Assembly (NCBI GenBank): GCA_902625415.1
Contig: CACOBG010000002.1
Location: forward strand, 85,783-149,782
Source: an uncultured SAR86 cluster bacterium
Lineage (GTDB): Bacteria; Pseudomonadota; Gammaproteobacteria; Magnimaribacterales; AG-339-G14
Length of the DNA: 64,000 bases
Reading direction: 5' to 3'
Below, piece by piece: positions 27,137-62,197 of this stretch. The notes beneath the pieces are model-generated. The model was not told where the DNA came from and searched no databases. It saw only the letters and a list, made by a program, of their open reading frames with translations. The translations under genes were made by a program, and so were the position numbers. Numbering within the stretch: the first letter of the stretch is position 1; every line of letters begins with the position of its first letter.

Positions 27137-27792
27137 TGTCTCAAGAAACTAAAAAATATTTGATCGAGGAAGCTTTAGGGGAACTTAATTCTAATGCTTC
27201 AAAAAAATTCACTGAATCTTTGGATGTTTCAATTAACTTAGGAATTGATGCTTCCAAATCAGATCAGAATGTTCGAGGAGCATCAAATCTTCCTCATGGA
27301 AATGGTAAATCTTTCAAAGTTGCAGTATTTGCAGATGGCGATGAAGCAACTCAAGCAAAAGAAGCAGGAGCAGATAAAGTAGGCATGGAAGATCTTGCGG
27401 AGGAAATAAAAGCAGGGAACATGGATTTTGATGTTGTGATTGCAACACCTGATACCATGAGAGTAGTTTCTCCTTTAGGACAAATTCTTGGTCCAAAGGG
27501 ACTGATGCCAAATCCAAAATCCGAAACTGTTACTAAGGATATTCCAAATACGGTAAAAAACGCAAAATCAGGACAAATTAGGTATAAATCAGATAAACAA
27601 GGTATAATCCACGCCCGTATTGGACAGATAGGTTATACAGAAGAACAATTGAAAGATAATTTAGAAGCTTTTTTAACAGACGTTAAGAAGGCAAAACCCC
27701 CTTCGGCAAAAGGGGTTTATATTTCAAAAGTAACCCTCTCTTCCACCATGGGCAAAGGGTTCGAAATTGATACTGCAAAACTTAATTTTTAA
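27136..27792 (+). CDS. rplA: 50S ribosomal protein L1
   Basis: [20 protein letters not shown], downstream of rplK. Confidence 0.98.
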
Positions 27793-27833
27793 TTCATAGA
27801 TGAGTTTGTTTGGAAAAATAAGAATTTTAAGCT

Positions 27834-27979
27834 GTTGTAACTTCGTTACAACCGTCTTAGACCGTAGGAGTTTAACTTTTTTAAACTTAATGTTTCCTAC
27901 GCAGATAGTTCAAAAAGATTTCTCTTTTTGGACAAAAGGTTCCTCTTTTGGAAATTTAATCAAAGGAGGGTTTTAATTA
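27834..27979 (+). promoter_or_regulatory. L10-type ribosomal protein leader upstream of rplJ
   Basis: AGACCGTAGGAG...TTAATGTTTCCTACGCAGA with CGTAGGA(27863-27869)/TCCTACG(27895-27901) stem and inner GTTTAA/TTAAAC, plus further hairpins up to the SD. Confidence 0.75.
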
Positions 27980-28498
27980 ATGTCACGCTTAGATACTAAG
28001 AAAGTTCTAGTTGAGGATTTAAATAAGATTGCTCAAGAAGCTTTTTCTGTGATCGCTGTTGATTATCGAGGAACTAATGTTCCTGGTTTAACTCAACTTA
28101 GAAAGGAAGCTAAATCACAGGCTGTTCAATTAAAAGTTATTAAAAATACTTTAGCAAAAAGAGCTTTGGAGAATACTAAATTCGATTCTTTAAATGAAAT
28201 TCTTACAGGTCCAACCCTGTTGGCTTTTTCTATGAATGATTTTCAAAGTGCAGCAAAACTTGTAAAAGACTTTGCAGCCAAAGAAGAATCATTTGAAGTA
28301 AAAGGACTTTCCATAGGAGAAGGTTTTCTTGAGCCAAACGAGCTTAAGGCCTTAGCTTCTCTTCCATCAAAAGAAGAAGCAATTTCTATGCTTCTAGGAT
28401 TAATCCAGGCTCCACTTAATAAACTTGCCGGAACTTTAAATGAGGTTCCGTCACAGTTAGTTAGAACTGTTAACGCAGTGAGTCAAACTAAATCTTAA
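27980..28498 (+). CDS. rplJ: 50S ribosomal protein L10
   Basis: VDYRGTNVPGLTQLRKEA, TGPTLLAFS; between rplA and rplL. Confidence 0.97.
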   Translation: MSRLDTKKVLVEDLNKIAQEAFSVIAVDYRGTNVPGLTQLRKEAKSQAVQLKVIKNTLAKRALENTKFDSLNEILTGPTLLAFSMNDFQSAAKLVKDFAAKEESFEVKGLSIGEGFLEPNELKALASLPSKEEAISMLLGLIQAPLNKLAGTLNEVPSQLVRTVNAVSQTKS

Positions 28499-28524: not shown

Positions 28525-28905
28525 ATGGCTATTACAAAAGAAGAAATACTCGATGCGATATCAGAAATGAGCGTTATGGATGTAGTTGATTTGGTAAAAC
28601 TTATGGAAGAAAAATTTGGCGTCACTGCTGCAGCTCCAGTTGCTGCTGCTGCTGCTCCTGCAGCAGGTGGCGAAGCCGCTGCTGCTGAAGAGCAAAGTGA
28701 ATTTGAAATTTTCTTAGCTGATGTTGGTGAAAAGAAAATCGATGTCATCAAGGCTGTGAGAGCAATTACTGGCTTGGGCTTGAAAGAAGCTAAAGCAATA
28801 GTTGATGGCGCTCCCGCTTCTGTTAAAGAAGGCGCAAATAAAGATGAGGCCGAACAAGCCAAATCTCAACTTGAAGAAGCTGGCGCAAAGGTAGAACTAA
28901 AATAA
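28525..28905 (+). CDS. rplL: 50S ribosomal protein L7/L12
   Basis: Ala-rich hinge and [28 protein letters not shown]. Confidence 0.98.
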
Positions 28906-28928: not shown

Positions 28929-31900
28929 ATGGCAAGTACATACTCATTTGCAGAAAAAAAGAGAATAAGAAAAAGTTTTGAAAAAATTTCTAGTGCGATG
29001 TCACTACCTGACATCTTAGAAATCCAAACCGATTCGTATGATTACTTTTTACAAAATATTCCTGATGCTACAAAGAGGAAAAATCAAGGCTTGGAAAGCG
29101 TTTTTCAATCGATTTTTCCAATCAACAGTGTCTCTGGAAATGCAAGGATTGAGTACTTAGGTTATAAACTACAAGACCCTGAATTCGATGTTCAAGAGTG
29201 TCTTCCGCGAGGAAAAACTTATGAGGCGCCTTTAATAATAAGATGCAGAATTATCTTTATTGATAAAACCACTGGCGAAGAAAACCTCAAGAGCGCTAGA
29301 GAAGAAGAAGTTTATATGGGAACTGTTCCTTTGATGACAGAGCATGGAACTTTTGTAATTAATGGTACTGAAAGGGTAGTTGTTTCTCAGCTGCATAGAT
29401 CACCAGGTTTGATATTTGATCATGACAGGGGTAAAACTCATTCATCAGGGAAACTCTTATACTCTTCTAGAGTAATACCTTATAGAGGTTCTTGGTTAGA
29501 CTTCGAATTTGATCATAAAGATCTTGTTTACATTCGTATTGACAGAAGAAGAAAACTCTATGCGACCATCTTACTAAGGGCAATAGGTTTTACTTCCCAA
29601 GAGATATTAGAGAAGTTCTACGAAAAAGAAACTTATCTAATAGGTTCAAATAGTTATTCTTTGAAAGTCATTCCTAGAAGAATGGTTGGTAAGATTGCTC
29701 CCTCAGATATAAAAGGCAGTCAAGGTGTAATAATCGAAGCAGGTAAAAGAATAACTGCCAGACACATAAGACTAATTGAGTCGAGCAAGATTAAAACTTT
29801 AGAGGTTCCAAAAGAAAGTCTCTTCAATCAAACAATTGCCGAAGATATTATTGATCCTTCAACTGGAGAAATCGCAATAGCATGCAACACTTTGATCGAT
29901 GAAGAAATTCTTCTCAAATTGAGTGAGCTAAAACTAAAAGAAATTAATGTTCTTTATATAAATGAGCTTGAATCAGGCCCATATATCTCAGATACCTTAA
30001 GATCAGATACTACTTCTAATTCACTAGAAGCTCTTGCTGAAATCTACAGAATGATGAGACCTGGAGAACCGCCTACCAAAGAAGCTGCAACTCTCTTATT
30101 TGAGAACCTATTTTTTAATGCAGATAAATATGATCTTTCTGATGTAGGAAGGATGAAATTCAATAAAAGGCTAGGTAGGGAAGAGTTAATAGGAAAGGGC
30201 ACTTTGGATAACGATGATATCCTTGAGGTTATAAAAACTTTGGTAGATATTCGAAATGGAAAACAAACCTGTGATGATATAGATCATCTTGGAAATCGAA
30301 GGATCAGATCAGTAGGAGAAATGGTTGCTAACCAAGTTAGAGTAGGTTTGTTGAGAGTAGAAAGAGCCGTAAGAGAAAGGTTAAACATTGCAGAGGCAGA
30401 AGAATTAGGACCAGCAGATTTAATTAATGCAAAACCAATAACTGCAGCAATAAACGAGTTTTTTGGTTCAAGTCAGTTATCTCAATTCATGGATCAAAAT
30501 AATCCTCTATCCGAAGTAACTCATAAAAGACGTGTCTCAGCACTGGGCCCTGGAGGACTAACTCGTGAAAGAGCTGGTTTTGAAGTCAGAGATGTTCATC
30601 CTTCTCATTACGGTAGAGTTTGTCCAATTGAAACTCCTGAGGGACCAAATATTGGTTTAATAAATTCTTTATCAGTATATGCAAAAGTTAATGATTTCGG
30701 TTTTCTTGAGACTCCCTACAGAAAAGTCGAAAACGGCAAGGTAACCGATGAAATTCAATATGTATCTGCAATTGAAGAAGGTGAATTTGTTATAGCACAA
30801 GCCTCAGTAAAATTAGACAAAAACAATAAATTTGTTGAAGAGCTCGTTCCAGTTAGATATAGAAATGAGTTTGAGTTAATGACTGTTGACAGAGTAGATC
30901 TTATGGATGTCTCTCCTCAACAAGTAGTTTCAATTGCTGCAGCGCTAATACCTTTTCTGGAACATGATGATGCTAATAGGGCATTGATGGGATCAAATAT
31001 GCAACGTCAAGCAGTTCCAACTTTATCAACAGAAGCTCCTTTAGTTGGTACGGGCATGGAAAGACTGGTAGCACAATACTCTGGAGATTGTATTATTGCT
31101 AAAAATTCTGGAACAGTTGAAAAAGTAGATTCGGGAAAAATAGTTGTAAGGAAAAACCTTAAAGAGATAAGCGCAACCGACTCAGCTGTCGATATTTATA
31201 ATCTGATTAAATACACAAGATCAAATCAAAATACCTGCATCAATCAAAGACCTATTGTAAGTGAGGGAGATAAGATTTCTGCTGGAGACATATTGGCAGA
31301 TGGTTCTTCAATAGACTTAGGAGAGTTAGCGCTTGGACAAAATATCAAAGTTGCTTTTATGGCATGGCACGGCTACAACTTTGAAGATTCAATCTTGATT
31401 TCAGATAAATTAGTTAAAGATGACAAGCTTACAAGTGTTCATATTATTGAAGAGACTTGCACGGCAAGAGATACAAAACTTGGCCCAGATGAAATAACAG
31501 CAGATATTCCTAATGTTGGTGAGTCTGCTTTATCAAAACTTGATGAATGCGGAATAGTTCACATTGGAGCGGAAGTAAATGCAGGAGATATTCTTGTTGG
31601 TAAAGTTACTCCAAAAGGGGAAACACAACTTTCTCCAGAAGAAAAACTATTAAGAGCAATATTTGGAGAAAAAGCATCAGATGTAAAAGATACATCCTTA
31701 AGAGTTAAAGCCGGACAAGATGGTACTGTTATTGATGTTCAAGTATTTACTAGAGAGGGTTTAGAAAAAAATTCTCGAGCTGAAGTAATAGAATCGGTTT
31801 CTTTGGCAGAGATTCAAAAAGATATTGATCAAGAATTAAGTATAGTTTCCGAAGCTACCATTAATTCCCTAATGCCATCTCTTGAAGGTAAGAAAGTTAT

Positions 31901-33005
31901 CAGCGGAAGAGGTATTTCCAAAGGAGAGGCTTTGACAAAAGACTTCTTAAAGAGCTTGCCCGCTTCGGAATGGTTCAAATTGAGAATGCAAGATGAAAAG
32001 CTTAACGATTTGATAAAAGAATCAAAGGACAATCTCAAAAAATATGAGGACATGCTTAAAGAACGCTTTGAAGCTAAAAAAAGAAAAATAGTTTCTGGCG
32101 ATGATTTGCCTCCAGGGGTGCAACAAGTAATTAAAGTTTACCTCGCCGTAAAAAGAAAAATTCAGCCTGGAGATAAACTTGCAGGAAGGCATGGTAATAA
32201 AGGTGTAATTTCAGTAGTCATGCCTGTCGAGGATATGCCTTATGATGAAAACGGAGAACCAGTTGATTTAGTTCTAAATCCCCTAGGAGTCCCTTCAAGA
32301 ATGAATGTAGGTCAACTTCTTGAAGTCCACTTAGGCTGGGCATCAAAAGAACTAGGTAAAAAAATAGGTGAGCTAGTTGAAAAGTCTAAGAACCTTTCTG
32401 AAGTAAAACCTTTTGTTGAAAAAATTTATTCTTCTACTGGAAAAAAAGAAGAGCTTGAAAAACTCTCTGATAAAGAATTTAAAGAGCTATGTGAAAATTT
32501 AAAGTCAGGAGTGCCAATGGCTACACCAGTTTTTGATGGAGCATCAGAAGAAGAGATTAAAAAGATGCTCGAACTAGCTGATTTACCATCTTCTGGTCAA
32601 GCTCAACTATATGATGGAAGAACGGGCGAGGCTTTCGATAGATTAGTGACAATTGGATACATGTATATTTTAAAATTAAATCATTTAATCGAAGATAAGA
32701 TGCATGCTAGATCTACAGGTTCATACAGTCTTGTTACTCAACAACCTCTTGGAGGGAAAGCTCAATTTGGAGGTCAAAGGCTTGGAGAAATGGAAGTATG
32801 GGCTCTAGAAGCTTACGGAGCTGCTAACACTTTACAAGAGATGTTGACTGTAAAATCAGATGACGTTCCAGGAAGAACAAAGGTATACAAAAATATTGTA
32901 GATGGTAATTATGAAATGGAAGCTGGCATCCCCGAATCCTATAATGTTTTAACCAAAGAAGTCAGATCTCTAGGAATAGACATAGACTTCGACGAGGTAG
33001 ATTAA
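28929..33005 (+). CDS. rpoB: DNA-directed RNA polymerase subunit beta
   Basis: [60 protein letters not shown]. Confidence 0.99.
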
Positions 33006-61845: not shown

Positions 61846-62197
61846 TGGTGGAGGCGGCGGGTATCGAACCCGCGTCCATCAATTTATCCCTATCAGCTCT
61901 ACATGCTTAGATTCATCTTTTAAATTCCTTTTTTAACTCTCCGATGAGCAGGATAGATAAAAAGTATTCTGTTAAAACTTTTCAGAAAAACCACAGAAAT
62001 AATTTTCTGAGCAACCTATTAATTGACTTTCGCTTACCCTAATAGGTATTAGATAAAGAAAGCTAGCCAAATTATGCGGCTAGAGCGTAGTTTGCTTTAT
62101 TGCCAACTAATTTTTTTGTAACTTCATTTTACGAGTTAGTTACATTCTCGACATGCACATTAAGTTCAAAAACGGATGTCTAATCCATTTCGCCCCC
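61846..62197 (-). ncRNA. ssrA: tmRNA
   Basis: 5' GGGGGCGAAATGG..., conserved TGTGCATGTCGAG, tag ORF GNKANYALAA, 3' GGACGCGGGTTCGATACCCGCCGCCTCCACCA. Confidence 0.97.

Follow-up and report, generated by a model that had tools for sequence, protein, structure and literature searches.

A gammaproteobacterial L10 leader in a SAR86 cluster genome and a hairpin predicted to close the rplJ SD

The rplJ leader in the window (the whole stretch of 64,000 nucleotides that was analysed) is best explained as a translational leader of rplJL-rpoBC in which a kink-turn domain is followed by a first hairpin (hairpin 1) and by a second one that by default keeps the rplJ ribosome-binding site (SD) shut, while L10 would act on ribosome loading; we assign this reading a probability of roughly 60%. 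Computation establishes that the leader is of the L10 type, that hairpin 1 is real, and that the SD hairpin predominates and is conserved within the genus. By analogy with known L10 leaders and through its family membership, the leader would be expected to bind L10(L12)4 and to mediate repression. In the proposed mechanism the kink-turn domain at 27851-27909 would bind free L10(L12)4 as a mimic of the L10 site in 23S rRNA; hairpin 1 and then the hairpin enclosing the rplJ SD would follow, the latter being shut by default irrespective of the state of the kink-turn stem. Translation of rplJ would thus depend on ribosomes loading on an adjacent single-stranded stretch and melting the SD hairpin, and L10(L12)4 bound just upstream would lower this loading and thereby rplJ translation. 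That repression operates through blocked loading instead of refolding is a speculative component, which we consider less likely than not.

Locus and kink-turn domain

The rplJ loci most similar to that of the window belong to SAR86 cluster bacteria, and the window itself is, to judge by this similarity, from a SAR86 (Gammaproteobacteria) genome. Open reading frames give the gene order secE-nusG-rplK-rplA-rplJ-rplL-rpoB (Table 1), in which the leader takes up the 187 nt after rplA and lies directly 5' of rplJL, the position of rplJ leaders that bind L10(L12)4. A small open reading frame at 27800-27976 was rejected as a gene: it runs through the structured domain and would be thrown out of frame by single-base indels in the relatives L025 and L026. 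Elsewhere in the window, a terminator-like hairpin (CCCCTTCGGCAAAAGGGG, 27698-27715), readable on both strands, lies within the end of rplA, and a tmRNA gene (184 bits) is found on the minus strand at 61846-62197.

Table 1. Features of the rplJ leader and neighbouring genes (window coordinates).
Feature	Position	Strand	Evidence or remark
rplA	end at 27792		ORF list
5' hairpin, GTTGTAAC-TTC-GTTACAAC	27834..27852	+	minimum-energy fold; also in family folds
L10(L12)4-type kink-turn domain	27851..27909	+	R1 match; stem covariation in 37 leaders
C-stem of kink-turn	27852-27856/27904-27908	+	one mismatch in the SAR86 genus of the window
NC-stem of kink-turn	27863-27868/27896-27901	+	covaries across 37 gammaproteobacterial leaders
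Unpaired UAA of kink-turn, invariant	27888-27890	+	alignment of leaders
Hairpin 1, 11 bp, GTTCAAAAAGA-TTTC-TCTTTTTGGAC	27908..27933	+	folding energy, covariation
Hairpin 2 (CAAAAG/CTTTTG), competitor of SD hairpin	27933..27950	+	predicted not to form
Conserved single-stranded AAAAGG between hairpin 1 and SD hairpin	27934..27939	+	genus alignment
SD hairpin, anti-SD arm TCCTCTTTTGG (27941-27951) with TCAAAGGAGGG (27960-27970)	27941..27970	+	energy, pairing, conservation
rplJ SD core GGAGG	27965..27969	+	best match to 16S 3' end
rplJ (ribosomal protein L10)	27980..28498	+	ORFs; SAR86 homologues 72-99% identical
rplL	28525-28905		ORFs; downstream of rplJ
rpoB	28929-33005		ORFs; downstream of rplL

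Leaders of rplJ were gathered at genus, family, order and class level, and a covariance model of 65 positions (R1) was built from the kink-turn alignment of 37 leaders, with E. coli K-12 included and the SAR86 family of the window excluded. Across these 37 gammaproteobacterial leaders, 96.6% of cells in the C- and NC-stems are paired and two-sided changes occur at 7 of 11 pairs, a result equalled by none of 500 shuffles. R1 matches the window at the kink-turn domain with 42.4 bits (E 6.9e-10), which is its single match in the whole window genome, and recovers it, at 26.8-54.5 bits, in each of the 30 family relatives examined. The window leader has both stems and the unpaired UAA; the 5' strand of its C-stem is overlapped by the 3' arm of the 5' hairpin. 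Since R1 matches the window and its relatives and nothing else in the genome, the domain is, at the level of sequence, a genuine gammaproteobacterial kink-turn leader of the L10(L12)4 type. The original prediction of an L10 leader is thus borne out by a model trained without the SAR86 family, and the conserved element it had pointed to (CGTAGGA 27863-27869 / TCCTACG 27895-27901) is correct in letters and coordinates. In the same order, leaders L063-L068 (family f4) carry the kink-turn domain at 34-40 bits, yet little or no recognisable SD precedes their rplJ; in L063 the domain begins immediately after the rplA stop.

The Rfam L10_leader model, a search with which had been suggested as a check, misses the leader: RF00557 aligns to it at 30.6 bits, below its gathering cut-off of 44. 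As RF00557 matched none of 94 gammaproteobacterial genomes, its failure in the window says little on function, and the missed gammaproteobacterial L10 leaders are a property of the Rfam library, not of the window genome. R1 matched 108 of 140 genomes with one match per genome (about 25 of these had entered its training); the Rfam model overlooks the gammaproteobacterial form, which R1 detects.

Hairpin 1 and the closed SD

The arms first noted for hairpin 1, CAAAAAGA (27911-27918) and TCTTTTTG (27923-27930), are right in letters and coordinates, and the stem is longer than described (11 bp, 27908-27918/27923-27933; -9.9 kcal/mol, z -3.9). Within the genus, 97% of its cells are paired and two-sided changes occur at 3 of 11 pairs, while about 11% of its letters are non-majority in 13 genus members; the alignment indicates that hairpin 1 is a real, conserved and covarying structure. 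Because the stem has 11 bp, its outermost pair takes C27933, a base that hairpin 2 needs as well. The AAAAGG that follows shows 2.6% non-majority letters in the 13 genus members, compared to 14.4% in the loop of the SD hairpin. A role as an SD-like standby site was rejected, for this segment, although conserved, is no better as an SD-like site than about one third of control segments; it possibly serves as a ribosome-loading contact.

As originally predicted, CCTCTTTTG (27942-27950) pairs with CAAAGGAGG (27961-27969) over 9 bp with one G-U, and the pairing extends to 11 bp. The resulting hairpin has an energy of -11.7 kcal/mol (z = -2.9; 1 of 200 shuffles as stable) and a predicted occupancy of 0.99-1.00, and the local pairing probability averaged over the 8-nt SD is about 0.97 in the window, with a mean of 0.94 across the 13 genus members. 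Opening the SD, whose core lies 10 nt before the ATG and forms a duplex of predicted -11.8 kcal/mol with the 16S 3' end, would cost 7-8.5 kcal/mol. The SD is predicted closed across 10 to 45 C, and an RNA thermometer was rejected. Against a genome null for SD accessibility, drawn from the window and 20 further stretches of 20 kb each, the mean unpaired probability of the rplJ SD (0.03) ranks above the 1% but below the 5% quantile of 196 genes, which places it among the top few percent closed. The SD TAGGAGGA at window position 2518, where a 678-codon ORF begins on the minus strand, had a predicted accessibility of 0.004, the lowest of 76 strong-SD genes sampled; its pairing partner lies elsewhere than within the 40 nt upstream.

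The SD hairpin could be incidental, as an A+T-rich genome and a strong SD often give such hairpins, with the kink-turn domain alone being regulatory. An SD opening cost or closure equal to that of rplJ is found for about 5% of the genes in the window genome, and when linkers were swapped in from other genes of the genome, the local opening cost gave p = 0.075 for the window linker. The same swap test on SD pairing probability, however, was equalled in 5 of 402 cases, and the stem is retained in all 13 genus members. Non-majority letters in these make up 3.8% of the anti-SD arm and 0.7% of the SD arm as against 14.4% of the loop, i.e. the anti-SD arm is about four times less variable than the loop and is constrained despite being non-coding. 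In diverged relatives, two loop-proximal pairs have changed on both sides (equalled in 8 of 500 shuffles), and the most diverged genus members add new loop-proximal pairs; core pairs are uninformative because they hardly vary. We consider an incidental hairpin unlikely, and the claim that CCTCTTTTG sequesters the rplJ SD holds as a prediction of a closed SD, kept throughout the genus with a constrained anti-SD arm.

Beyond the genus the picture is less clear. Each genus was tested separately because the linkers are too divergent for a reliable MAFFT alignment, on which cross-genus covariation of the SD hairpin would depend. Local SD pairing is 0.72, 0.78 and 0.19 in the neighbouring genera g4, g3 and g2, and 0.30, 0.04 and 0.14 in families f2 and f3 and in the remaining class; in two of the three other family genera it is similar to that of the window genus but weaker and not clearly above chance. 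Combined over four genera, the swap tests gave p = 0.03-0.2, varying with the choice of representatives, a range that lends the incidental explanation some weight. The CCTCTTTTG/CAAAGGAGG complementarity expected in homologous leaders is present in 13 of 13 genus members, whereas in the other three genera it is weaker and not significant. With test results of 5/402, 0.075 and 0.03-0.2, the SD hairpin is statistically credible inside the genus and unproven outside it. Most leaders of family f3 (L069-L088) have a short hairpin of the GCC-GAAA-GGC type a few bases before an open SD, and in family f2 (L049-L062) a hairpin often directly abuts the SD.

Coupling of the SD to the L10 site

Hairpin 2, whose noted arms CAAAAG (27933-27938) and CTTTTG (27945-27950) are accurate in letters and position, had been proposed to form an on/off switch with the SD hairpin: without L10, 27942-27950 would pair with CAAAAG and leave the SD open, and L10 would move it onto the SD. 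The two pairings do exclude each other, AAAAGG is conserved in the genus, and the strand order lets hairpin 2 form first in transcription. The alternatives are, however, unbalanced: hairpin 2 reaches -3.1 kcal/mol (z = -1.6; equalled by 20 of 200 shuffles), which leaves it 8.6 kcal/mol short of the SD hairpin, and its predicted occupancy is 0.00. No two-sided changes of hairpin 2 were found in the genus alignment, and it is broken in L027 (A-A) and L028 (U-U), where the SD hairpin persists. L10 binding would, moreover, make C27933 of hairpin 1 available to hairpin 2 and thereby promote opening instead of closing. Comparable stability, conservation or covariation of both pairings and dependence of the SD on the L10 site, which would mark a two-state switch, were all absent, and we regard such a switch as highly improbable.

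The last of these points comes from constraint folding. Enforcing or forbidding the C-stem of the kink-turn left mean SD accessibility unchanged in the genus of the window (0.06/0.07), in g4 (0.26/0.26) and in g2 (0.39/0.40). The calculation covered three of the family's genera, g3 being left out as its kink-turn letters fall outside the search pattern, and it treats secondary-structure thermodynamics, with kinetic folding and tertiary contacts outside its scope. Because the constraints have no effect, secondary-structure thermodynamics does not connect the SD to the L10 site, and the predicted response of the SD to L10 binding finds no support at this level.

The same result bears on a refolding mechanism as in E. 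coli, in which L10 would form the C-stem and disrupt the downstream hairpin (P3/hairpin 1), the freed 3' strand then closing the SD. Such a mechanism would be possible in many other gammaproteobacterial leaders because their downstream hairpin also claims the 3' strand of the C-stem (at least 2 of 5 nt in 22 of 36 class leaders and in 20 of 20 of family f3); when the C-stem is imposed on the E. coli leader, the predicted fold joins GCUUGUUUCUGCUC to the SD region. In the window leader, by contrast, the two structures compete for only about 2 bp (1.3 of 5 nt), the released letters stop short of the SD, and the accessibility of the SD is indifferent to the C-stem constraint. Coupling through hairpin 1 was rejected, the conflict between it and the C-stem being too small, and refolding of this kind appears very unlikely here.

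Still less probable is transcription attenuation as in Bacillus subtilis, with the hairpin at 27941-27970 and the following TTTTAATTAA acting as an L10-dependent terminator. A consensus scan flags this hairpin as terminator-like, and RF00557 aligns it to its own 3' hairpin, followed by U; but it offers just 4 GC pairs and 4 U, the other genera lack the U tract (e.g. GAGAGATTAATAA, TTGAGGAATTAATA), and the stem contains the SD, with the gene start 10 nt later. With a U tract that is not conserved, the element lacks what defines a B. subtilis-type attenuator, and the terminator reading was rejected.

The preferred reading, a closed SD hairpin with L10 acting on ribosome loading, has observations against it too. 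For a gene that needs strong translation, a predicted 7-8.5 kcal/mol seems a high price for opening the SD, and something beyond the model (S1, co-transcriptional folding or coupling) may therefore open it. SD pairing in the three other genera is weaker and not significant, SDs equally costly to open occur in about 5% of the genome's genes, and the conserved AAAAGG is not unusually SD-like. An extended version, in which one SAR86 family would have exchanged refolding for a closed-by-default SD hairpin and L10(L12)4 would control loading remotely with secondary structure unchanged, strikes us as quite unlikely.

Comparison with known systems

RF02858 (Arrc08, Actinobacillus sRNA 08) aligns with the window over 27803-27968 (36.4 bits, E 8e-9), far under its cut-off of 219 bits; as the alignment spans the leader including the kink-turn letters, RF02858 probably represents an L10 leader of Pasteurellaceae and not an sRNA. 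With the rplJL leader of Bacillus subtilis (RF00557, transcription attenuation) the window leader shares an upstream kink-turn L10 site and a final hairpin before the gene, but its RF00557 score is below the cut-off, its final hairpin holds the SD and is followed by no good U tract, and no antiterminator like that of the B. subtilis system was found in it. Standby-dependent mRNAs such as E. coli tisB (PMC7708055) resemble it in that a stable local hairpin holds the SD and is preceded by single-stranded sequence; use of a standby site would here be an inferred analogy.

The closest system is the rplJ leader of the gammaproteobacterial (E. coli) type bound by L10(L12)4, with which the window leader has in common the position before rplJL-rpoBC, the C- and NC-stems, the conserved UAA, a hairpin after the kink-turn and the match to R1. 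In E. coli, L10(L12)4 represses translation and sequestration of the SD has been proposed, the detailed mechanism being unresolved (PMC4538822; PMC10931766), as is, by the description given, repression of rplJ from a distant site (PMC10931766). The two differ in that the E. coli K-12 leader measures 412 nt as opposed to 187 nt after rplA, and in that the SAR86 genus closes the SD by a local hairpin, with a downstream hairpin that overlaps the C-stem by about 2 bp only. With its 187 nt and single local SD hairpin, the SAR86 leader offers a compact test system for the question of whether repression needs refolding of the SD.
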